From Deltaproteobacteria bacterium (GTDB lineage: Bacteria > Desulfobacterota > DSM-4660 > Desulfatiglandales > HGW-15): a stretch of 56,445 nt of DNA. The position numbers and the translations under genes were made by a program. This document shows positions 14,720-53,489 of the stretch, piece by piece (position 1 is the stretch's first letter; every line of letters starts with the position of its first letter). The stretch lies in contig JAFGGA010000180.1 in NCBI GenBank assembly GCA_016930835.1, forward strand, positions 1 through 56,445. The letters are read 5' to 3'. Below the pieces are notes generated by a model, which saw only the letters and a list, made by a program, of their open reading frames with translations, was not told the DNA's origin and did not search any database.

Positions 14720-16375
14720 ATGCAAAAACTGGAAAGTGCAAATAAAGATATGGATTTCGATGACCTGATTCACAAGATCTTCCCTGAAGCAAAGGATATT
14801 CCCGGGTCTTTTTGGATAGGAAAACCCATCGAGCAACGGGAATATCTGATCAGTGGTGAAATCCGTTTTTGGGAAGGGCCAATGTGTGATGTTCATTCGC
14901 CGGTTTGCGTTCACACCGATTCCGGTCTGTCACAATTACATCTGGGGCGGGTTCCCAACATGACCGAAAATGAATCCACGTCGGCCTTGGAGGCAGCCCT
15001 CAAGGCCTGGGATAAAGGACGAGGTCTATGGCCTACCTTGCCGCCGGCTGAAAGGATCGGATGTGTTGAAGGGTTTTTAAGGGAGTGTCTTAAGAGAAAG
15101 AAGGAAGTCGCCCGTTTATTAATGTGGGAGATCGGCAAGCCCTATAAGGATTCTGCAATCGAGTTTGATAGGGCCATCGAATATATCAAGGATACCCTTG
15201 AGGTGGTGAAGGACTTGGACAGGATTTCATCAAAATGGGTCGGCCAAAAAGGGATTATGGGTTTGATAAAACGGGCTCCCTTGGGTGTGGTTCTGTGTAC
15301 GGGGCCGTTTAATTATCCTTTTTATGAAACCTTTACCACGTTGATGACGGCCTTGGTTATGGGGAATACGGTGATCTTCAAACCCCCCAAATATGGCGTG
15401 CTTTTGTACAGGCCGTTGTTGAAGGTTCTATGCGATGCATTCCCAGAAGGGGTGGTGAACAGTATTTATGGGGATGGGGAAACGATAATCCCCCCTCTCA
15501 TGTCATCCGGCAAGGTGGATGTCCTTGCATTTATCGGTACAACGGCAGTGGCATCGGCCCTGAAGAAACAACATCCCAACCCGCATCGGCTGCGTTGTCT
15601 GCTGGGATTGGAGGCCAAAAATCCCGCGATCATTCTCCCGGATGCGGATTTGGATCTCGCTATTCGTGAATGCGTCCTGGGGACGCTAGCCTTTAACGGC
15701 CAGAGGTGCGCGGCTCTGAAGATATTGTTCGTTCACTCTCGTATCGTAAAGGCCTTCCTTGAGGGTCTATCGAACGCGATTGCACGACTTCGATTCGGGA
15801 TGCCGTGGGAAGCTGACGTTTTTATTACACCGCTTCCGGAACCGCATAAACCCGCCTATCTAAATGCCCTTGTAAATGACGCCCTGGCTCACGGCGCATC
15901 CGTAATCAATGAAGGAGGCGGTAGGGTTTATGAGACATTTTTTTATCCCACGATTTTGTTCCCGGTGAATGATGAGATGCGGGTTTATCATGAGGAACAG
16001 TTCGGCCCTGTCATCCCCGTGGTTCCTTTTGACAATGTTGAAATTCCGATTCAATACGTGATCCAAACCAGGTATGGCCAACAATTGAGTATTTTCGGGA
16101 CGGATCCGGAGACGATGGCTGATTTGATTGATCCCCTGGTCAACCAGGTGGCAAGAGTGAATATCAACTGTAAGTGCCAGCGTGGACCTGATACCTTCCC
16201 GTTCACGGGCAGGAAAGACTCCGCCGAGGGAACCCTTTCCGTGTCTGATGCCCTGCGCGCCTTTTCCATACGTACGGTGGTCGCGGCGAGAGACACGGAT
16301 GTGAATAGAGGCTTGATGCAAGATATTATGAAGAAAGAGAAATCGAATTTTTTAAAGAGTAATTTTTTTGATTAA
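14720..16375 (+). CDS. gapN: NADP-dependent glyceraldehyde-3-phosphate dehydrogenase (GapN-like ALDH)
   Basis: A 551-residue aldehyde dehydrogenase superfamily enzyme. The cofactor fold has GVVLCTGPFNYPFYE and IFKPPKYG; the catalytic Glu lies in LLGLEAKNPAIILPDADL and the catalytic Cys in LAFNGQRCAALKILFVH. These contexts resemble GapN, which oxidises glyceraldehyde-3-phosphate directly to 3-phosphoglycerate without making ATP. It has an N-terminal extension of about 60 residues relative to streptococcal GapN. The neighbouring PfkB gene fits glycolysis, as does the missing pgk in the gap-tpiA cluster of this window. Substrate is inferred from family resemblance only; another phosphorylated aldehyde is possible. 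Confidence 0.75.
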   Translation: MQKLESANKDMDFDDLIHKIFPEAKDIPGSFWIGKPIEQREYLISGEIRFWEGPMCDVHSPVCVHTDSGLSQLHLGRVPNMTENESTSALEAALKAWDKGRGLWPTLPPAERIGCVEGFLRECLKRKKEVARLLMWEIGKPYKDSAIEFDRAIEYIKDTLEVVKDLDRISSKWVGQKGIMGLIKRAPLGVVLCTGPFNYPFYETFTTLMTALVMGNTVIFKPPKYGVLLYRPLLKVLCDAFPEGVVNSIYGDGETIIPPLMSSGKVDVLAFIGTTAVASALKKQHPNPHRLRCLLGLEAKNPAIILPDADLDLAIRECVLGTLAFNGQRCAALKILFVHSRIVKAFLEGLSNAIARLRFGMPWEADVFITPLPEPHKPAYLNALVNDALAHGASVINEGGGRVYETFFYPTILFPVNDEMRVYHEEQFGPVIPVVPFDNVEIPIQYVIQTRYGQQLSIFGTDPETMADLIDPLVNQVARVNINCKCQRGPDTFPFTGRKDSAEGTLSVSDALRAFSIRTVVAARDTDVNRGLMQDIMKKEKSNFLKSNFFD

Positions 16376-42326: not shown

Positions 42327-42920
42327 TTCCAGAAAAAACCTCAATCAATCATCAGGGCGCGGCATGGGTACTCAAAAAATAAAACAACCCCCAAACGACG
42401 GCACGCATCCTTTTTATCGGGCTGCATTTGTTCTGATCGGAATATGACCTTTCCCTTCTAGTCGTGAAACACATTGTTCGGCCCAGTTGCCCGACCTAGT
42501 GTTATGGATGGAAAAGGAATGAAAAGCGTCAAAGGATTTTTTCGCAAAATTTGGGTAAAACCTTCCGACCGGTTTTACGATGTTCATATTTCTGTTCAAT
42601 ACGTCATAGCGGATCGAATGGGTTTTCCCGTAGTTATTCCCGCTGCTTTTGTCGATAACACTTTATAACGATCAAGATCTTGAAATGCCTATTTATTCAT
42701 GATAAGCTTCCTGTCCAGAATACGGGCAACCGCCTACAGTTCCGTTATTTCGAAGAACAGTAGCCGCCAAATCTCGATTTTTAGGACCGCCCTATATATT
42801 ACATCCGTAAAAAATCAAGGTCTTATCATCCAATAGGACACACTGGGTTTTGCATTGATTTCGGTATCAGTGACAAACAGTGTCTTAATGTGAGCTCAAT
42901 GGCCAATGCAGGAGGATAAA

Positions 42921-44369
42921 ATGGCAAGGAATTTTGGTCAAAAGTTGGCTAATTTTGTTGTAGAAACCGGTTTCCAAAATCTACCTGAAGCTGTGTGGCA
43001 AGAGGTAAAACATCTTCTGCTGGACAGTATTGGGTGCGCCCTCGCAGGAGGTACATGCGATAAAGGTAGGATTTCCTTAGCGTTGGCAAGACGGTCCGGC
43101 GGTGTACCTGAATCATCGATAATTGGCGTGCCGGATAAAATTTCAAGTAATCATGCTGCTCTCGCCAATGGTGAATTGATTAATGCATTGGATTACGACC
43201 CGATAGTTGTGGGGCATGCGCCGGGATTTGTCATCCCGCCGGTGCTGGTGTTAGCCGAAAGCGTTGGGGCCTCCGGGGGAGAATTATTGACATCTACTGC
43301 TCTTGGATTCGAAATTGCCTATAGAATTACACGCGCATTGATCCCACGGAAAATAGATGTGGATCCCGAAACAGCTGCTGAAATGGGGCTCGACCGAGTC
43401 GCTCTCAACAGATATGGAATGGATATATGGCGAGTTTTGGCGTCAGGTCAGAGTAAATTTATATTTGGCGGGACAGCAGGAGCCGGTAAAATTCTAAAGT
43501 TCGGGGAGAAAGAAATGCTTCATGCTCTCGGTATAGCTGGTCATTTCTGCCCTGTTCCAACCACGAGGAAGTGGGACTCTACGAATTCACCAATAGCGAT
43601 GACAAAATATGGGTCAGCAGGATTCACCTCTATGGCCGCAGTTACATCGGTCCAGCTTGCCCAAATGGGTTACCTGGGAGATACAACGGTTTTTGATGGT
43701 GAGTACGGCTTCTGGAGGATGTATTCCTGCGATAAATGGGACCCCGATAACGCATTAGAAAAGATCGGTGAAGACTGGCTCATCCTGGGATGTAGTTATA
43801 AAAAATACCCTTGCGTTCAAGCTATGCAAGGGGCATTGCATGCATTTATCCGTGTTATTGAAAAAAACAAACTTGTGCCTGAGGAAATTCAAGGGGTTAA
43901 AGCTTTTGTTCAACCGGCGCTGACCCATCTAGTCCTTGGTGAAGAACTGGCAAGTCACATTGATCTGCAGTTCAATGTCCCGTATTGTTTCGCCTGTGCG
44001 GCTTATGGGATCCCGATAGGTGCGGATTGGCAGACTCAGGATACGATGCATAATCCCAGGATATTGGAATTTATGAAGAAGGTAAGCAAAGAAGCCGTGC
44101 CGGATTATGATGGAAAGGTCGGTAAGGAATGGAAGGGTCACTCCGATTCAGGTGCGGTTGAAGTTGTGGCAAAGGGAAAGATATTTAAGGAAGAGACAGA
44201 TTATGCCTTTGCGAGCCGGCGACCGACCGAGGAAGAACTTGTGACTAAGTTTAAACAGAATGCTCAAAGAGTTCTGTCCCGAAAAAAAGTCGATGAGGCC
44301 GTAAAATGCCTCTTAGACTTGGAGTCATTAAAGAATGTAAAAGAACTTATGGTACGGGTTACACTTTGA
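42921..44369 (+). CDS. MmgE/PrpD family protein
   Basis: A 482-residue MmgE/PrpD enzyme: an N-terminal helical domain (LLDSIGCALAGG, ANGELINALDYDP...GHAPGFVIPPVLVLAES) and a C-terminal lid domain (FAFASRRPT near the end). The family includes 2-methylcitrate dehydratase, cis-aconitate decarboxylase and iminodisuccinate epimerase, all acting on di/tricarboxylates. Here HAPGFVIPP occupies the usual active-site His region. RBS AGGAGG fits ATG 42921; the codons before it are the RBS itself. It faces the dpp-type genes tail to tail and is probably part of the same catabolic block. Substrate unknown. Confidence 0.85.
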   Translation: MARNFGQKLANFVVETGFQNLPEAVWQEVKHLLLDSIGCALAGGTCDKGRISLALARRSGGVPESSIIGVPDKISSNHAALANGELINALDYDPIVVGHAPGFVIPPVLVLAESVGASGGELLTSTALGFEIAYRITRALIPRKIDVDPETAAEMGLDRVALNRYGMDIWRVLASGQSKFIFGGTAGAGKILKFGEKEMLHALGIAGHFCPVPTTRKWDSTNSPIAMTKYGSAGFTSMAAVTSVQLAQMGYLGDTTVFDGEYGFWRMYSCDKWDPDNALEKIGEDWLILGCSYKKYPCVQAMQGALHAFIRVIEKNKLVPEEIQGVKAFVQPALTHLVLGEELASHIDLQFNVPYCFACAAYGIPIGADWQTQDTMHNPRILEFMKKVSKEAVPDYDGKVGKEWKGHSDSGAVEVVAKGKIFKEETDYAFASRRPTEEELVTKFKQNAQRVLSRKKVDEAVKCLLDLESLKNVKELMVRVTL

Positions 44370-44413: not shown

Positions 44414-45277
44414 TTAAAGCGTGCCTCTAAGTCTTGGATCCAAGGCATCTCTCAGCCCATCACCTATCAGGTTGAAAGCAAGAACAACCAGCAGGATCGC
44501 AATACCCGGAGCAAAGGAGAGTAATGGATTGCTAAGCAGATAATTATACCCGACGCTGACCATAGAACCCCAGGTCGCCGTTGGTGGACTGATACCGATG
44601 CCAAGGAAACTGAGCGAGGCTTCCATCAAAATCGCGGTTCCTATTTGTAAAGTTATCAGCACCAGTAGAGGTGGGAAGGCGTTGGGTAATACATGCCTTA
44701 AAATGATACGGAGATCGCTTGACCCGAGGGCCTTGGCTGATATGATATAATCATTCTCTTTAATCGAAAGTACCTGCGCACACATAAGCCGGCAATATGT
44801 GGGAATCAATCCTATACCCAAAACGATCATTACATTGAACAACCCACCTCCCAATATTGAGGCAATAGCAAGAATTAAAACCATCGATGGAAGAGCCATA
44901 AAGGCGTCAATGATTCGCATGATAATATTGTTCACCCATTTATTGAAATATCCGGCGATCAGACCCAATGACATGCCCACGACGGCTGATATCGTTACGG
45001 CAACAACACCAACCATTAAAGAAACCCTCGCGCCATATATTATCCGGCTTAATATATCCCTTCCGAGATCATCCGTTCCCAGGAAGTGTTCGCGCGAAGG
45101 GGCTTCTAAAATATTATTGATATTCTGTTCGATTGGGTCATAGGGTGCGATTAAGGGCCCAAAAATGGCTGTCAGCATAAAAAATACGGCAATAATGAAG
45201 CCTAGAATGGCTACGCGGCGGCTGAACATTACCCTAATAATTCTTCTGCCTTCTGTTTTTATAGACGGTGCTTCCAT
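44414..45277 (-). CDS. Oligopeptide/dipeptide-type ABC permease, DppC-like
   Basis: A 287-residue permease with an N-terminal helix (VAILGFIIAVFFMLTAIFGPLIAPYDP, the OppC_N region), LGTDDLGRDILSRIIYGARVSL and five further helices; the EAA coupling loop is EALGSSDLRIILRHVLPNAFP-like (AKALGSSDLRIILRHVLPN). It pairs with the DppB-like gene upstream. Last gene of the minus-strand operon. Confidence 0.92.
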   Translation of the reverse strand: MEAPSIKTEGRRIIRVMFSRRVAILGFIIAVFFMLTAIFGPLIAPYDPIEQNINNILEAPSREHFLGTDDLGRDILSRIIYGARVSLMVGVVAVTISAVVGMSLGLIAGYFNKWVNNIIMRIIDAFMALPSMVLILAIASILGGGLFNVMIVLGIGLIPTYCRLMCAQVLSIKENDYIISAKALGSSDLRIILRHVLPNAFPPLLVLITLQIGTAILMEASLSFLGIGISPPTATWGSMVSVGYNYLLSNPLLSFAPGIAILLVVLAFNLIGDGLRDALDPRLRGTL

Positions 45278-45339: not shown

Positions 45340-46299
45340 CTATTCATACCTTATCCGAGGGTCCAACCAGCCATAGGAGATATCAACAGCCAAGTTAACC
45401 AGTAATACGACAATGGCGATAACAAGGGTACATCCTTGCACGGCTATAGAATCTTTATTAAATACGGAAGTTACCATGAGCCTGCCCATACCGGGGATAT
45501 TAAAGACGGTTTCAATAAGCACCAGTCCGCCTACGAGAACTCTAAATTGCATTCCCAGAAGGGTCACCACGGGAATCAGAGCATTTTTCATGGCGTGACT
45601 TATTACAATAACTCTCTCCTTGAGCCCCTTTGACCAAGCGGTTCTGATATAATCTTGCCTTACTACCTCCAGCATGCTGGAGCGAGTCTGTCGAGTAATA
45701 ACCGCCATGGGAAATAAAACCATACAAAAAACCGGCATAATTGCCTGGCGGATATTCATAATGGGATCTTCCAAAGGGGAGGTATAGCCCTGAAGCGGAA
45801 GCCAGCCTAATTTTAGTCCCAATGTGTAAATCATAATTACGGCAAGCCAGAAAATGGGTGTGGCAATGCCGATATTAGAAAACAGGGCAATGACCGTATC
45901 TATTGTTTTACCGCGTCTGATCGCACAAATGATTCCGAATCCAATACCGAGAACAGTACTAATTATAAAAGAAAATATAGATAGGTTAAGCGTAACCGGA
46001 AGGCGTGTCATGATAAGCTCTTTAACGGGTTGACCGTAAAGTACCGATTTCCCCAGATCGCCCTTAAAAACATTGGTTAGCCAATGTCCATACTGGACTG
46101 TAAGCGGACGGTCCAGCCATAGTTCCTTGCGAAGCTCCTCTATCTGTTCCAAAGTCGCTTCTTCTCCCAGCAAGCAGCGGGCCGGATCTCCCGGGATAAG
46201 ATGGATTAATAAAAAGACAAGTACAGTAACGATGAACATGACCACTACACTGAGGATTAATCTACGGACAATATAAGTAATCATATAATAATATCTCAT
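45340..46299 (-). CDS. Oligopeptide/dipeptide-type ABC permease, DppB-like
   Basis: A 319-residue inner-membrane permease with six helices, starting YIVRRLILSVVVMFIVTVLVFLLIHLIPGDPA, typical of DppB, and an EAA loop TAWSKGLKERVIVISHAMKNALIPV. A start at ATG 46284 is also possible. Together with the DppC-like protein it forms the pore for a peptide- or organic-solute importer; no ATPase genes follow. Confidence 0.92.
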   Translation of the reverse strand: MRYYYMITYIVRRLILSVVVMFIVTVLVFLLIHLIPGDPARCLLGEEATLEQIEELRKELWLDRPLTVQYGHWLTNVFKGDLGKSVLYGQPVKELIMTRLPVTLNLSIFSFIISTVLGIGFGIICAIRRGKTIDTVIALFSNIGIATPIFWLAVIMIYTLGLKLGWLPLQGYTSPLEDPIMNIRQAIMPVFCMVLFPMAVITRQTRSSMLEVVRQDYIRTAWSKGLKERVIVISHAMKNALIPVVTLLGMQFRVLVGGLVLIETVFNIPGMGRLMVTSVFNKDSIAVQGCTLVIAIVVLLVNLAVDISYGWLDPRIRYE

Positions 46300-46314: not shown

Positions 46315-47475
46315 CTATTTCTTTCCACCGGACGAGATAGACTTGATATACGCTTCAATATGTTTTTTTAGAAGCTTTGGATTTGATATCTTATATTGCT
46401 GTGGTTCAAGAGGCAATACAGGTATGCCTAATTTCTCCAATTCTTTTTCCTGATCCGGGTAATCCCACGCCGGATGCTGATCATCTTTGATATGGAAAAA
46501 GATTTCCCCTTGAGCACTGGCTGCTACAACCGATTTGACTCTGTATTTCAGTGTTTCATCCATGCCTAGCATCCAAGGGTCCGGTGGTTTATATGTATAC
46601 CTATCACATATGGCTTCCATCGGGTCCATATCATCTCTAATAAGCAACTCCGCGTATCGGTCACCAAAAGCGGTATCCTCACCTACAACGACTGCATGGG
46701 TAGATTCTATAAGTTCATAAAGCTTCGGATGATCGACCGAACTACCCGATACGAATATCCTTGTTTTGGAAGCATCCTTCTTAGGAAGGTTATTGACCTC
46801 CTTATCCAGAAATTCTTTAAGTAATCTATTGTATTCCGTCTTTGGCATAAGCATTGATGCCATGATAATCGGCAATGCTTCACACCCTGATATATGGGGA
46901 GGGTCCGTTTTCCTAAGATCAGAAAGCTTTTTAAGGAGCTTCCTGGTTTCATTGGTCACCTCTATAGCTTCTGACAAAGCACGATTGGTTATTTTTCTCT
47001 GTGAGAATTCCTCAAGATAGTCTTTAAAGGCGACTAATCGGCCGAAGTTATAGTCACGATGATGTTTGAACGTTGTCCTGAGATGCTCTAAAAAATATGT
47101 CTCTTTATATTCAAGTGAGGGGTTTAGTCGCTTCTCTTCATTCAGGTAACCATGGAGGCTGCTCTGCCATTCATCACCTGCTGTAATACATATTAGATCA
47201 ATAAAATTATATCTTCCGGTCAGGATTGCTTCATATAAATATCGGATCGGGAGGCTCACAGGATATTGCATATATTTATAATCCACATCAGAATCGCTAT
47301 CCGGGTCTCCGACCATCAACAGCGGAAGGCATCCGGCGGCAATAATCAATTCCTCAGGGCAATTAATGTCCGTATAACCAATTATTTTTTGTCCTTTTTC
47401 TTTCCAATCTTTGGCTAATAATTGATAATTCCATCGTTCTTTATAATATTTTTGTAATGTTTCAAATGCTTTCAT
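46315..47475 (-). CDS. 2-hydroxyacyl-CoA dehydratase family subunit, atypical (no cluster Cys)
   Basis: A 386-residue protein of the HgdB/BcrC-like dehydratase family, with IGYTDINCPEELIIAAGCLPLLMVGDP near 32, RIFVSGSSVDHPKLYELIESTHAVVVGEDTAFGDR in the second domain and a C-terminal EKLGIPVLPLEPQQ. Normally three Cys bind a [4Fe-4S] cluster. By eye, the first site aligns with QYPVSLP, the second with ITAGDEW and the third with KDDQHPAWDYP, so all three are replaced. Cys39 and Cys49 are present but elsewhere. RBS AAGGGA. It follows the second subunit in the operon. Without cluster and activator, radical dehydration is doubtful and the reaction is unknown. Confidence 0.78.
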   Translation of the reverse strand: MKAFETLQKYYKERWNYQLLAKDWKEKGQKIIGYTDINCPEELIIAAGCLPLLMVGDPDSDSDVDYKYMQYPVSLPIRYLYEAILTGRYNFIDLICITAGDEWQSSLHGYLNEEKRLNPSLEYKETYFLEHLRTTFKHHRDYNFGRLVAFKDYLEEFSQRKITNRALSEAIEVTNETRKLLKKLSDLRKTDPPHISGCEALPIIMASMLMPKTEYNRLLKEFLDKEVNNLPKKDASKTRIFVSGSSVDHPKLYELIESTHAVVVGEDTAFGDRYAELLIRDDMDPMEAICDRYTYKPPDPWMLGMDETLKYRVKSVVAASAQGEIFFHIKDDQHPAWDYPDQEKELEKLGIPVLPLEPQQYKISNPKLLKKHIEAYIKSISSGGKK

Positions 47476-47563
47476 AGTATTCCCTTTTTGTAAGTAAACT
47501 GATTATTTATTAGATGTTCATAACCCTCTAAATCATAGTATTTGGAGATACATATGAGAAAAT

Positions 47564-48871
47564 CTATTTTTTTGGATTTTTATTTTTAAATGGTTTCAGA
47601 CTTTCTATAAATACGGTAACCTTGGCCTTCATTGCGGAATCATCCCAATTTTGACTATCAACCGGATCATAGTTGATAATCAAGGTCGGTGTCCCATGCC
47701 TCTTTAGCGTCTCTAAAATAAACATTTCCCCCCTATACGCCGTTCCTCCCCTGATGGGAAGGATGACGCCATCCGCTTTACATTTTTCTACGGTATGAAC
47801 AGCGTATTCCGCGGCGGCTGTTGGGGTTGCAGCTCCGTATCTTAGATGCCTGCGTAAAGCCATAGCCTTCAACGGGTTGCTTCGATCGTGATACATGATT
47901 TTTGCCGCTGCTGAGATATAGTTATCAGCGATAAATACGGCGCCATGACTTTCTTCCCAATAATTGTAGAAACCAAGGGAGAACCATATCGGCAGAGTCG
48001 TAAGCCATAATAAACGGACTTTTTCATTGGGACAAACGGCCTCCTTATTGTCAACACGTTTTTTGATCTCTTCGTAGTATTGTTTTGCATGCTCCAATGT
48101 CCATTTTTCGCCCTGATGCCAATTATACACGGCGACTTCCGCAAAAGCGTCTGTTACACTGATTGGAGCCGGGACAGTCGTACAGGCAAGGTCAGTGGCC
48201 TTCCAGTAGTATTCACATGTTTCATCAGCTATTTCAAGTACCTCCCGTAGCTTGGCCTCATTATAACTTTTTCCGGTAAGGGCTTCCAGAAACCTTGCAC
48301 ATCCTTCAAATTCTTTAGTCCATTGCTCAACCATAGGAGGGTTTCCCCAGTCCTCAATCTCCCACCACCTGGATGGGATGTTTGTCGGGTGCGTAAAGTC
48401 CATGAAATAAAGTGGGCAACCAAATTCACGCGCATAATGCTCATATACTCTGGTTGACGAGGCACGATCTATAATCCATGCACTTATCTTTGGGATCCCG
48501 CCATAGGGAGCAGCCTTCGGATTATTATCAAGCGCATAACCGAGTGTTATGCTTTCATAGCCGCCGGCAAGACTATTAAAGTAGCCTTTTTGTTTCAAGA
48601 CATCATGATAATGACGATCCATCTGTTTGGCTGCAAATACCGCCGACCACCAGGCATGACAATGATAATATAAACCCATGGACCTAATCAGCTCCCTCGG
48701 TCCGTCGCCAAAGATCAAATGTCCTCCCCTTGCTATTCCCTCTAACATCTCTTCATTCGACTTTTTCATCAAACCGGATGCTTCCTGAGACGTTTTTAGG
48801 CGTTTTTTGCTCCTTTCACCTTGCCACTGCTCGGTTTTAAGCTTAGACCCTTCTTTTGTTTTTTGAATCAT
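47564..48871 (-). CDS. 2-hydroxyacyl-CoA dehydratase family subunit, atypical (HgdA-like, no cluster Cys)
   Basis: A 435-residue relative of the larger dehydratase/benzoyl-CoA-reductase subunits. Recognisable are GPRELIRSMGLYYHCHAWW, a Gly-rich AGGYESITLGYAL where a Cys-Ser-Tyr is expected, PKISAWIIDRASSTRVYEHYAREFGCPLYFMD where the second Cys is expected, and KADGVILPIRGGTAYRGEMFILETLKRHGTPTLIINYDPVD where an NRSC motif is expected. By eye none of the three cluster ligands survives, matching the partner subunit. RBS AAGGAG eight bases from ATG. The first 40 residues are a basic, unstructured leader. No HgdC/BcrA-type activator is in the window. Confidence 0.78.
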   Translation of the reverse strand: MIQKTKEGSKLKTEQWQGERSKKRLKTSQEASGLMKKSNEEMLEGIARGGHLIFGDGPRELIRSMGLYYHCHAWWSAVFAAKQMDRHYHDVLKQKGYFNSLAGGYESITLGYALDNNPKAAPYGGIPKISAWIIDRASSTRVYEHYAREFGCPLYFMDFTHPTNIPSRWWEIEDWGNPPMVEQWTKEFEGCARFLEALTGKSYNEAKLREVLEIADETCEYYWKATDLACTTVPAPISVTDAFAEVAVYNWHQGEKWTLEHAKQYYEEIKKRVDNKEAVCPNEKVRLLWLTTLPIWFSLGFYNYWEESHGAVFIADNYISAAAKIMYHDRSNPLKAMALRRHLRYGAATPTAAAEYAVHTVEKCKADGVILPIRGGTAYRGEMFILETLKRHGTPTLIINYDPVDSQNWDDSAMKAKVTVFIESLKPFKNKNPKK

Positions 48872-48945: not shown

Positions 48946-50190
48946 CTATTCAAAAACTCCATCTTGAAGCAATCGAACAAATTCATCGTCAGAAATGTTC
49001 AAGAAATGAGTACAGACATATTCGTTATGTTCCCCTAAACGCGGAGCCGTCCTCGTGCGGGGTTTTGTCCCAAGCAATTTGAAAGGTGGATTAACATGGT
49101 TAAAAACCCCTATTACAGGATGTTCCAGGCGTACAAAGAATTCCCTTTCTCTCATCTGCGGATCATTATCCAGTATATCCTGAGCATTTTGAACCACGCT
49201 TGCGGCAATACCGGCCTTTTGCATCATGTGCATAATATCTTTGGCTTCATGTTTGACCGTCCATTCGGACATTAATTTTTCCAATTCGTCTTCATGCTCC
49301 TTTCTATTACTCAAGGTGGAAAACCTGGGTTCTTTTGTCCAGGGCGGATCATCGATTACATTACAGAATGACCGCCATTCTTTTTCTGTAAAAACAGCAA
49401 TAGCACACCACCTGTCTTCCCCGTAACACGGAAATACGCCGTGCGGCGACGCGTTGGGGATACGATTACCGTTGCGATTCTGCAGGTTAGCGTTCGCTTG
49501 CCAATCTAAAATGGCTGGATTGGTCATATGGGTCCAAATCTCGAGCATGCTGGCATCAATGTATTGTCCTTTGCCGGTTTTTCTTCGATAATCCAATGCG
49601 GAAACAACAGCAAGGACATTAAAAAATGGAAGAATGTAATCACCATAGGTCACCGTCGCACCGCCGGGACCCCGATCCGGCCAGCCAATAAGATTACTAT
49701 GGCCTGATAACGCTGCCCCGATTCCATCTACGCCCCATTCCCTGGCGAGCGGTCCGGTTTGTCCGAATAAACTTCCACTAATCATTATTATGCGCGGATT
49801 GATACTTTTTACGGATGCGTAATCCAAACCCAGTTTTTCCATTGTCCCGGGAGTGAAGTTCTCATTAATGACATCAGCCCAAATAATTAGCTTTTCTATG
49901 ACCGCTCGTGCCCGAGGATTTTGCAAATCAAGTGTTATTCCATATTTTGAGGTATTGAGCTGAACAAAGCGCGGCTTATCATCAGGGTTGGTCCCGGTAG
50001 ATATAGAAACGTGCCGGCTTGTCCTTATCATATCAATGCGCTTGGAGGATTCCACTTTGATAACAGTCGCTCCGTAATCCCCAAGGTATTTACCGGTCAA
50101 AGAACCGGCAATAGCCCAACCAAAATCCAGGACATTAACATCTTTTAATGCCTGTTCATCCGTGCTCTGAACTTCCATTCTAGTGTTCAA
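48946..50190 (-). CDS. Class III CoA-transferase (CaiB/BaiF), catalytic-type subunit
   Basis: A 414-residue CaiB/BaiF family protein: LDFGWAIAGSLTGKYLGDYGATVIKVES at the N-terminus, NENFTPGTMEKLGLDYASVKSINPRIIMISGSLFGQTGP, catalytic Asp in TYGDYILPFF, and RRKTGKGQYIDASMLE. The family swaps CoA between acids through an aspartyl-CoA intermediate. The start is TTG 50190, overlapping the upstream gene's stop, or ATG 50178. The tight coupling to a second family member suggests a heteromeric enzyme like BbsEF. Confidence 0.9.
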   Translation of the reverse strand: MNTRMEVQSTDEQALKDVNVLDFGWAIAGSLTGKYLGDYGATVIKVESSKRIDMIRTSRHVSISTGTNPDDKPRFVQLNTSKYGITLDLQNPRARAVIEKLIIWADVINENFTPGTMEKLGLDYASVKSINPRIIMISGSLFGQTGPLAREWGVDGIGAALSGHSNLIGWPDRGPGGATVTYGDYILPFFNVLAVVSALDYRRKTGKGQYIDASMLEIWTHMTNPAILDWQANANLQNRNGNRIPNASPHGVFPCYGEDRWCAIAVFTEKEWRSFCNVIDDPPWTKEPRFSTLSNRKEHEDELEKLMSEWTVKHEAKDIMHMMQKAGIAASVVQNAQDILDNDPQMREREFFVRLEHPVIGVFNHVNPPFKLLGTKPRTRTAPRLGEHNEYVCTHFLNISDDEFVRLLQDGVFE

Positions 50191-51425
50191 ATTACATTCC
50201 CTTTTTTCAATTCAGCTATAACCTCGGGGGAAATACCCATTTCTTTGCTGAAAATTTCGTTATTGTGTTCTCCAACATGTGGAGCCCTGTGTCTCACAAA
50301 ATTCATGGTTTCGTTGCACAAAAAGAAATGTCGAGAATGGGCCAGTTTGATACCTCGTTCACTGTAATCCAATTTGATCCAATAGTCTCTTGCATTTAGG
50401 TGCGAATTTTGAAACACATCCGCCGGATTACTAATAACATGGGCACGTATTCCTCTCATCAACCCATCCGTAGATATTTCTTCCTTGGTATGTCTCAAGA
50501 AAAACGTCGTTATAGCCGCTTCAAATGCATTATGTTCTTCTCGAGTTACCTTAGCCATATTGAAGTTTTCCCAATCCGACACACGAGAAAATGGATTTTG
50601 TATGCCATCTTCCTCCATCCATTCACATAAGGCTCTATTGCCGGGAGCACCGAGCGGCCCTCCCCAAAAAATCCAAAAAACATATCCGTCCTTACATTGC
50701 CAAATCTGTTTCGAGGGACGCTTTCCAAACTCACTGACGGGACCTCCCCTCTTTCGCAGGACCTTATCAAACTCCCATGAAGAGAATGTCCCTGTATTCC
50801 TGTTGGTGGTCACTTCAGCAATAGAAATATCGACTTGCTGGCCGCGGCCTGTTTTCTCTCGATAATAATGACTAACCACAGCACCGCAAGCAGCGGCGGC
50901 ACACGCCTGAAAGTATACGGAACCTACAGGTTCCATGACAGGAGGCCGATCCGGTTCTCCCGCGATTCCCAAAATGCCGCTCATGGCATATGCTATCAAT
51001 TCACTACCTTTATAACGTGAATAAGGTCCTTTCTGACCAAACGAGGTTATGGATACAAGGATAATTCCTGGATTTATTTGTTTAAGATTTTCATAACCAA
51101 GTCCGAGTTGATCCATTGTTCCTGGTTGAAATGATTCGAGCACAAAATCGGACTCATTGACCAGTTCTCGAAATAAATCCTGCCCTTGTGGGGTTTCGAG
51201 GTTAAGGGTTATGCCGCGTTTATCGGTATTAAAGGCCAGCCAGTAAAGGCTGTTCTCGGGATCTGAAACATTATCTAAGAAAGGAGGTATGTAACGTGCG
51301 GAATCCCCTCCGGGTTTTTCGATTTTAATAACGTCAATACCCAGAGCGGCAAGAATTTTGCCACAGGCTAGCCCCTTCTCATCCGTCAGATCAAGAGCGC
51401 GAAATCCATTCAATAAACTATCCAT
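50187..51425 (-). CDS. Class III CoA-transferase (CaiB/BaiF), partner subunit without the catalytic Asp
   Basis: A 412-residue CaiB/BaiF protein: ALDLTDEKGLACGKILAALGIDVIKIEKPGGD, ESFQPGTMDQLGLGYENLKQINPGIILVSITSFGQKGPYSRYKGSEL and YREKTGRGQQVDISIAE. At the position of the catalytic Asp I read EPVGSVYFQACAA, with no Asp. So it is probably the non-catalytic half of a heterodimer with the downstream paralogue, which overlaps it by 4 bases. Confidence 0.88.
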   Translation of the reverse strand: MDSLLNGFRALDLTDEKGLACGKILAALGIDVIKIEKPGGDSARYIPPFLDNVSDPENSLYWLAFNTDKRGITLNLETPQGQDLFRELVNESDFVLESFQPGTMDQLGLGYENLKQINPGIILVSITSFGQKGPYSRYKGSELIAYAMSGILGIAGEPDRPPVMEPVGSVYFQACAAAACGAVVSHYYREKTGRGQQVDISIAEVTTNRNTGTFSSWEFDKVLRKRGGPVSEFGKRPSKQIWQCKDGYVFWIFWGGPLGAPGNRALCEWMEEDGIQNPFSRVSDWENFNMAKVTREEHNAFEAAITTFFLRHTKEEISTDGLMRGIRAHVISNPADVFQNSHLNARDYWIKLDYSERGIKLAHSRHFFLCNETMNFVRHRAPHVGEHNNEIFSKEMGISPEVIAELKKGNVI

Positions 51426-51877: not shown

Positions 51878-53431
51878 TTATTTGGATAACCAAATATCTT
51901 CCGGTGTCCATTGATCATTACCAAAATCTATATATAATCCAGTATCTTTAACTTCGGGATACGTGATAGAATTCTGGCCGCCTAAATAAACAGGGGCCAG
52001 AATGCAGTATTTGTCAACCATTAACCTCTGAGCTTCCATATAAAGAGCCCTAGCTTTTGATGGATCCGGTTCATTCATCGCATTATTAAGCGTTGTCTCT
52101 AGTTCAGGTGGTCTGATCATTTTAATAAAGTCGGTATATGCTCTCTGGATTGCTCGAGAAGGTTCCGTTAACTGATTCATGCGTATCGAAATCCAACAAG
52201 TACCATTCTTCCAACCCTCAGTACTGCGTATCGCTGTATATTTTGGATAAGCTAAAAGTTCCATTTGCGCGTCAAATCCAACTTTATTCAGGTAGCCCTG
52301 ACATGCCACAACCCAGGTATAATCAAATACTGAAGCAACATTTAATTTTATTTTTGGTTTATTTGAATCCCCATAACCCGCTTCCTTCAGCAACGCCATT
52401 GCCTTGGCAGGATCATAGCTATATCCTTCAACAGACGGGTTGTATGCTTTACTGCCTGGGACAGCAAGTACATGTCCAGGTAAATTTAGATCATGGAAAA
52501 TATTTTTACATATATCTTCCCTATTAATTGCATATGCCATGGCCTTTCTTACTCTTACATCCCTAAATACAGAATCAGGATTTGCACCATCCCCTACTAA
52601 TCCCGATATACCCGAGCTAAATGATGTATTGACAATATATTTTCCTTCTTGTTTGAGTCCATAGGTATCATTTGCCTGAAGACCGACTATCATCTTCCCC
52701 TCACCCGCTTCAAATGACATACGGGCAGTCACCTTATTGGCGATTAATTTAAATTCAATGCCCTCAAGATAGGGCTTACCTTCCTGCCAGTAATCCTCAA
52801 ACTTCTCATATTGGAGCAAACTATCACGCCTGAACTCCTTAAATTTAAAAGGACCTGTACCCACCGGATGAACAGAAGCCCATCCCTTACCATTTTTCTC
52901 AACCGCAGTCGGAGAAATCATACGTGCCTCGTCCTGTGAAAGAGCCGGTAAAATCGAGCCATCATAAGTATCAAAGTTCAGTCTCAGGCTGTAATTATCA
53001 ATTACATCTATCGATTTTACGGATTTAAAGGCCTCTTTGGGTGACTTTATTATTAATTCCAGGTTATATTTCACTGCCTCGGCATTAAAGTCTGTTCCAT
53101 CATGGAACTTTACGCCCTTTCTCAAGTCTAAGGTAAGAGATTTCCAATCAGGATTCCACTTCCAGGAAGTTACCAGCCACGGAATCTGTTCACCTTTTTT
53201 ATCATAGTGAAGTAGTGTTTCGAGACAAGGTGCTATCATTAATATATCTCTTGGCGCAAATGGTTCCGGGGTATATCCAATATTCTTTCCGGTGGTACCG
53301 GGAATGATGATGGTCAAATATCCGCCGGTCTTCGTCGTCTGTGCCCAAGCCGGGGTATTGATAAGCGTTGTAGCCATGAAAATGAAACTTAATAATAATC
53401 CCCCCACAAAATAACATCTTGCTCTTTTCAT
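51878..53431 (-). CDS. ABC transporter substrate-binding protein (family 5, oligopeptide type)
   Basis: A 517-residue periplasmic SBP_bac_5 protein. Signal peptide YFVGGLLLSFIFMATTLINTPAWA (cleavage near residue 30), then DILMIAPCLETLLHYDKKGEQIPWLVTSWKWNPDWKSLTLDLRKGVKFHDGTDFNAEAVKYNLE, the family signature, and VRKAMAYAINREDI. Start at ATG 53431 behind AAGGAGGAG. It is the first gene of the minus-strand operon and should deliver solute to the Dpp-like permeases at its end. Ligand unknown: family 5 binds peptides but also sugars, nickel and other organics. Confidence 0.92.
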   Translation of the reverse strand: MKRARCYFVGGLLLSFIFMATTLINTPAWAQTTKTGGYLTIIIPGTTGKNIGYTPEPFAPRDILMIAPCLETLLHYDKKGEQIPWLVTSWKWNPDWKSLTLDLRKGVKFHDGTDFNAEAVKYNLELIIKSPKEAFKSVKSIDVIDNYSLRLNFDTYDGSILPALSQDEARMISPTAVEKNGKGWASVHPVGTGPFKFKEFRRDSLLQYEKFEDYWQEGKPYLEGIEFKLIANKVTARMSFEAGEGKMIVGLQANDTYGLKQEGKYIVNTSFSSGISGLVGDGANPDSVFRDVRVRKAMAYAINREDICKNIFHDLNLPGHVLAVPGSKAYNPSVEGYSYDPAKAMALLKEAGYGDSNKPKIKLNVASVFDYTWVVACQGYLNKVGFDAQMELLAYPKYTAIRSTEGWKNGTCWISIRMNQLTEPSRAIQRAYTDFIKMIRPPELETTLNNAMNEPDPSKARALYMEAQRLMVDKYCILAPVYLGGQNSITYPEVKDTGLYIDFGNDQWTPEDIWLSK

Positions 53432-53489
53432 TGTACTCCTCCTTAATTTAAAGATTATCACCAAATGTTTAAAAAAATGGGACCTAGCC

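Follow-up and report, generated by a model that had tools for sequence, protein, structure and literature searches.

A pair of HGD-D family subunits lacking the iron-sulfur cluster cysteines, encoded beside a BbsEF-type CoA-transferase in a Deltaproteobacteria bacterium

The closest described systems are the two-subunit class I benzoyl-CoA reductase BzdNO of Aromatoleum (8S02) and the (R)-2-hydroxyisocaproyl-CoA dehydratase HadBC with HadI and HadA (3O3M). In Had and Fld gene clusters, a family III CoA-transferase is joined to the HGD-D pair. BzdNO and HadBC hold an electron-storage cluster in the BzdN/HadC-type subunit, which is fed by an ATP-dependent activator, and a catalytic [4Fe-4S]-OH2 cluster beside the substrate in the BzdO/HadB-type subunit (PMC11971306, PMC11574389). 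The cluster ligands of BzdO are Cys95, Cys128, and Cys380, while Glu65 serves as acid/base and Tyr97 and Tyr298 contact the thioester oxygen (PMC11971306, PMC11574389). The published view is that the superfamily gained functions through loss of clusters or sub-clusters, from the double-cubane cluster protein (DCCP) to benzoyl-CoA reductase, dehydratase, and TudS (PMC11971306). Cluster-free HGD-D members were not found reported in the open-access literature, most subscription journals lying outside this scope, and a paper describing a benzene-activation gene cluster proved to have no bearing on the pair described here.

The window, meaning the whole stretch of 56,445 nucleotides analysed, comprises positions 1 to 56,445 of contig JAFGGA010000180.1 from a Deltaproteobacteria bacterium (GCA_016930835.1). 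It encodes two HGD-D proteins, S1 and S2, within an apparent operon whose order on the minus strand is SBP_bac_5, CoA-transferase 2, CoA-transferase 1, S2, S1, DppB, and DppC. The features are given in Table 1.

Table 1. Features of the window around the S1/S2 gene pair
Feature	Coordinates	Strand	Profile or structure match
MmgE/PrpD-family protein, convergent with the operon	42906..44369	+	PF03972/PF19305
ABC importer permease, DppC-type	44414..45277	-	PF00528, PF12911
ABC importer permease, DppB-type, 15 bases downstream of S1	45340..46299	-	PF00528, PF19300
S1, BzdN/HadC-like (electron-relay) subunit without cluster ligands	46315..47475	-	PF06050 E 5.2e-54
S2, BzdO/HadB-like (catalytic) subunit without cluster ligands	47564..48871	-	PF06050 E 8.1e-41
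CoA-transferase family III subunit 1	48946..50190	-	PF02515 E 1.6e-102; nearest solved chain 9fn0_B E 1.2e-63
CoA-transferase family III subunit 2	50187..51425	-	PF02515 E 1.3e-73; nearest solved chain 9fn0_A E 3.9e-51
ABC importer substrate-binding protein SBP_bac_5, first in the apparent operon	51878..53464	-	PF00496 E 5.6e-69

Profile search placed both subunits far beyond the cut-off for PF06050 (HGD-D), and profile and fold together put both in the HGD-D / class I BCR-HAD superfamily. The nearest solved structures were BzdN and then HadC for S1, and BzdO and HadB for S2. The AlphaFold2 model of S1 (pLDDT 92.0, pTM 0.92) superposed on BzdN (8s02_B) with a TM of 0.90, and that of S2 (pLDDT 87.8, pTM 0.88) on HadB (3o3m_A) with 0.82 and on BzdO with 0.78. 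S1 is thus of the relay type and S2 of the catalytic type, since the relay cluster belongs to BzdN/HadC-type subunits and the catalytic cluster to BzdO/HadB-type subunits. The pair shares its two-subunit fold with BzdNO and with HadBC.

A preliminary description of this DNA had reported that all three cluster cysteines are gone from both subunits, quoting QYPVSLP, ITAGDEW, and KDDQHPAWDYP at the S1 sites and LAGGYES, IDRASST, and LPIRGGTAYR at the S2 sites. All six motifs were found in the sequence exactly as quoted, and homologue alignments bore out the loss. The ligand columns of the window protein read S/D/D when S1 was aligned with 61 other S1-like proteins, with Asp332 at the Cys3 position, and A/gap/gap when S2 was aligned with 62 other S2-like proteins. 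The relay cluster and the catalytic cluster of dehydratase and reductase enzymes each require three cysteines, of which S1 and S2 respectively retain 0/3. Among homologues outside the clade described below, the S1 columns were CCC in 57/61 and CDC in 4/61, and the S2 columns were CCC in 53/62, CCH in 7/62, and CC-gap in 2/62. No non-clade homologue (61 S1-like, 62 S2-like) had lost all three ligands, and the loss in the window is therefore far beyond chance. His stands in place of Cys at the third ligand position (GHMGHK) in S2-like genes of L051, L052, L055, L057, L060, L064, and L065, a distinct group of HGD-D subunits encoded mostly beside activators and possibly carrying a His-ligated cluster.

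The ligand-site positions in S1 agree with the helix starts of its model (75, 102, and 334), since in BzdN the ligands mark where the corresponding helices begin (PMC11971306). Remaining cysteines of S1 were considered as substitute ligands and rejected. Cys39 and Cys49, the two named in the preliminary description as possible occupants of ligand positions, are not ligands: Cys39 is next to the Pro conserved in the CPEE motif, where HadC likewise has a Cys, and not at the position of BzdN Cys36; Cys49 is located in the following strand. Cys96 falls within a strand, two to three residues ahead of site 2, and sites 1 and 3 provide no Cys to partner it. The window pair very probably carries no Fe-S cluster of any kind.

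Relatives were gathered by searches of genome collections, and a clade was compared that holds 11 full-length S1 and 12 full-length S2 proteins from several phyla, the window included. Its members in the window's genome are the window pair, C114, C60 (an S1 fragment), and C206 (S2 and an S1 fragment); the others are G131/L047 and two G466 loci (L069 and L118) from NCBI Myxococcota, L045 from Dehalococcoidia, L046 from Desulfobacteraceae with two tandem pairs, L048 from Coriobacteriia, and L127 and L128 from the order of L048. In each tree a single branch separated the clade from all other sequences, with an SH-aLRT of 100 for both the S1 and the S2 set. It is rare, being found at strict thresholds in 1/85 genomes of the window's class, 1/291 of the order of L046, and 3/249 of the order of L048, and at a comparable score in 1/294 Dehalococcoidia. 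The window's genome (G000) had 20 HGD-D family matches against 2 to 13 in seven other clade-bearing genomes compared.

Every clade S1 (11/11) had 0/3 ligand cysteines. The S2 proteins were divided: six of the 12 had all three (C114, G131, L045, L048, L127, and L128) and six had none (window, C206, L046a, L046b, L069, and L118), so that a half-cluster pair (C114) and a cluster-free pair (window) coexist in one genome. Forcing the six cluster-free S2 proteins into one clade, with the ligand columns masked, cost 20.9 log units (p-AU 0.002), and a single shared S2 loss was rejected, with the caveat that the window branches are long (1.06 and about 0.9); the count could be inflated by long-branch effects, which leaves two losses somewhat doubtful. 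With S1 ligand-free across the clade and a single origin of the S2 state rejected, loss was stepwise, and the simplest history read from the sequences is one loss of the relay cluster followed by at least two later losses of the catalytic cluster. The cluster-free branch proposed in the preliminary description was recovered, with the same pairing in other genomes, intact ORFs under selection, and no linked activator. Its suggestion that the cysteines were lost in parallel in both subunits was not supported in that form, given that half of the clade keeps 3/3 in S2.

The window's genome also encodes another, distinct HGD-D branch whose S1 lacks just the second ligand Cys (C-D-C; L120:6005-7132, L120:1-1125 on G000:C215, and L121:6856-8082 on G000:C129). 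In the S1 tree this branch fell outside the clade, and its C215 and C129 members were rejected as direct ancestors. On C215 its linked genes include a BbsEF-like CoA-transferase pair together with one SBP_bac_5 and one PGA_cap gene.

No PF01869 (BcrAD_BadFG) activator gene was present on the window contig, as the preliminary description had stated, nor on any of the 12 clade-member contigs, whereas an activator was adjacent in 17/21 non-clade loci fetched with flanks. The dehydratase and reductase enzymes have an activator encoded with the pair, and the window pair does not. Ten activator-family matches were found elsewhere in the window's genome. In the Dehalococcoidia genome G463, the clade pair are the only HGD-D proteins, and the only activator-like frame is a two-domain protein of 690 aa on another contig. 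Contig C132 of the window's genome (L122:198-5718), likely a canonical relative, encodes a Cys-complete HGD-D subunit, two CoA-transferases that are 54 and 58 % identical to those of the window, and then two activators, a layout that may resemble the ancestral arrangement. Contig C129 ends just past its S1-like gene, and C129 and C132 are perhaps adjacent contigs.

The position of the catalytic Glu65 of class I benzoyl-CoA reductase was Glu in 50/62 non-clade S2 proteins and in 0/12 clade S2 proteins, which carry Q, N, P, or A; the window S2 has Ala. The Tyr298-equivalent column was Tyr in 12/12 clade S2 proteins, and Tyr97 was mostly kept. Compared with BzdNO, the window pair thus keeps the Tyr298 equivalent but lacks ligands for the [8Fe-9S] and [4Fe-4S] clusters, Glu65, and adjacent activator genes. 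Compared with HadBC, which needs three cysteines per subunit and an activator, it has neither. DCCP and TudS belong to the same superfamily, and their evolution by cluster or sub-cluster loss has been proposed (PMC11971306), but each holds at least one Fe-S cluster, unlike the window pair, which has ligands for none. The window pair is inside the superfamily by profile and fold, and outside the dehydratase/reductase enzyme class by the features tested.

New residues have become fixed in both subunits. Clade-invariant and rare outside the clade are Pro58, Tyr253, Glu266, and Trp337 in S1, and Asp56, Trp75, Trp169, and Trp251 in S2; Y318 of S2 is also invariant in the clade. At the Cys3 position of S1, 11/11 members carry an acid (ten Asp, one Glu), at the Cys1 position 9/11 do so (Glu or Asp), and a His often stands two residues ahead of site 2. 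The old S2 sites of the cluster-free members are variable and partly deleted. For L046a against L069, the closest cluster-free pair, dN/dS was 0.09 (S1) and 0.07 (S2), with dS near saturation. The estimate applies to these relatives and not to the window genes, for which the closest homologues share only about 35-44 % identity. Both window ORFs are uninterrupted, as first described. These clade-specific invariants and the low dN/dS of a related cluster-free pair argue, at the level of sequence, that the clade has been repurposed and not decayed.

The two CoA-transferase genes share a 4-base overlap and correspond one to one to the two distinct chains of benzylsuccinate CoA-transferase (BbsEF, 9FN0), which marks them as BbsEF-type, in distinction from the HadA/HadBC system. 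For BbsEF, benzylsuccinyl-CoA enters a beta-oxidation route (PMC10818641), whereas the neighbour in the window is an HGD-D pair. Because of this match, a dicarboxylic or substituted-succinate substrate is hinted at. A class III CoA-transferase was linked in most clade loci (L039, L040/L047, L045, L046, L048, L069, L127, and L128), while no CoA-transferase gene was seen beside the pair in L118 or on C206, a short contig. In paralogous and related clusters, TRAP transporters replace the ABC importer, and PGA_cap and MmgE/PrpD genes are often present; MmgE/PrpD family members lie beside the paralogous C114 cluster (L039:15357-16736) and in L045 (4420-5793, a blastp match to the window protein). 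The likely role of the pair is framed by its operon partners, namely the BbsEF-type CoA-transferase pair and the peptide-type ABC importer, which the preliminary description had overlooked.

Some further observations were made on these neighbourhoods. An Asp is apparently absent, judged by eye, at the usual catalytic position of window:50187-51425 and of 9fn0_A (GSVYFQA, against YGDYILP in the first subunit), which suggests one catalytic and one non-catalytic CoA-transferase subunit. PGA_cap (CapA-like) genes repeatedly adjoin CoA-transferase/HGD-D clusters in different genomes for no obvious reason (L039:13848-14969, L045:6291-7466 and 15245-16366, and L120:7138-8289). Directly upstream of the Dehalococcoidia S1 gene, L045:8962-9927 encodes a radical SAM protein with ferredoxin-like Fe-S domains that resembles a glycyl-radical-enzyme activase, and no glycyl-radical enzyme was seen nearby.

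For the function of the pair, changed chemistry is plausible from the sequences, because the catalytic Glu has also been lost and the new residues are invariant. The reading preferred here, to which we give an even chance, is that S1S2 is an activator-independent, non-radical acyl-CoA enzyme partnered with the BbsEF-type CoA-transferase. S1S2 would be a heterodimer with the class I benzoyl-CoA reductase/2-hydroxyacyl-CoA dehydratase fold that works without Fe-S clusters, ATP-driven activation, or ketyl radicals. The CoA-transferase pair would turn an imported carboxylic acid into its CoA thioester, which would be held in the old acyl-CoA channel of S2, where the equivalent of BzdO Tyr298 is invariant. 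Conversion would then proceed by ordinary acid-base or Lewis-acid chemistry of a lyase, hydratase, or isomerase type, with the new conserved Asp, Glu, and Trp residues standing in for the metal centres. The half-cluster relatives, with the catalytic cluster only, would represent an intermediate step in which the cluster may act as a Lewis acid without electron supply. Against this proposal, the ten activator-family matches elsewhere in the genome could act in trans, though S1 has no cluster to take electrons, and the divergence and deletions at the old sites of the cluster-free S2 proteins fit lost catalysis as well as new.

The main rival, which we consider rather unlikely but serious, is a non-catalytic partner: the pair would serve as a scaffold, carrier, or regulator that binds acyl-CoA or the CoA-transferase, catalysis having gone with the clusters. 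The missing metal ligands and catalytic Glu, the variable and partly deleted old S2 sites, and the continued coupling to CoA-transferase genes all suit such a role, but it does not account well for the invariant new polar and aromatic residues in both subunits, the acid at the S1 Cys3 position in every member, or the retention of S1 and S2 together.

A second rival keeps the pair as a metal enzyme, with a cluster or another metal bound by non-Cys ligands (Asp/Glu or His) or by cysteines from elsewhere. Rare cluster ligation by Asp, His, Ser, or Glu is known (PMC11574389), and the acidic residues at S1 sites 1 and 3, often with the His before site 2, would be suitable; however, both the His and the site-1 acid are missing from the window S1, two of the three ligand columns are gaps in the window S2, and Cys96 and the remaining cysteines are away from the sites, which makes this explanation improbable. 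A related and similarly doubtful proposal is that a carboxylate site, with His in many members, has replaced the former Fe-S site of S1 and serves to bind a different metal or for acid-base catalysis, so that the active centre would have moved from S2 to S1 and the pair would perform non-radical, possibly oxygen-tolerant CoA-ester chemistry.

It is very unlikely that the genes are decaying, functionless copies of a former dehydratase or reductase. The long terminal branches of the window proteins, the loss of the canonical ligands and Glu, and a broken copy among the relatives (L069:11438-12091) point that way, but the ORFs are intact, the folds are of high confidence, the invariants are clade-wide, the related cluster-free pair has a dN/dS of 0.07-0.09, and several phyla are represented. 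Concealment of standard cysteines by misalignment, frame errors, or a chimeric contig, to which the alignment gaps around site 1 and the S2 sites might point, is scarcely credible and is refuted in practice by independent homologues, with six cluster-free S2 and eleven S1 proteins from several assemblies, model sites at the expected helix starts, and cluster-bearing S2 relatives that show all three cysteines at these positions of the alignment.

An annotation of HGD-D should accordingly not be equated with a radical, oxygen-sensitive enzyme. To the published series of cluster losses, the clade adds two further steps, a pair with the catalytic cluster only and then a pair with none. The fold of an oxygen-sensitive radical enzyme has apparently been put to some other use, which opens the question of what this fold can do without an electron supply, and then without its catalytic cluster.
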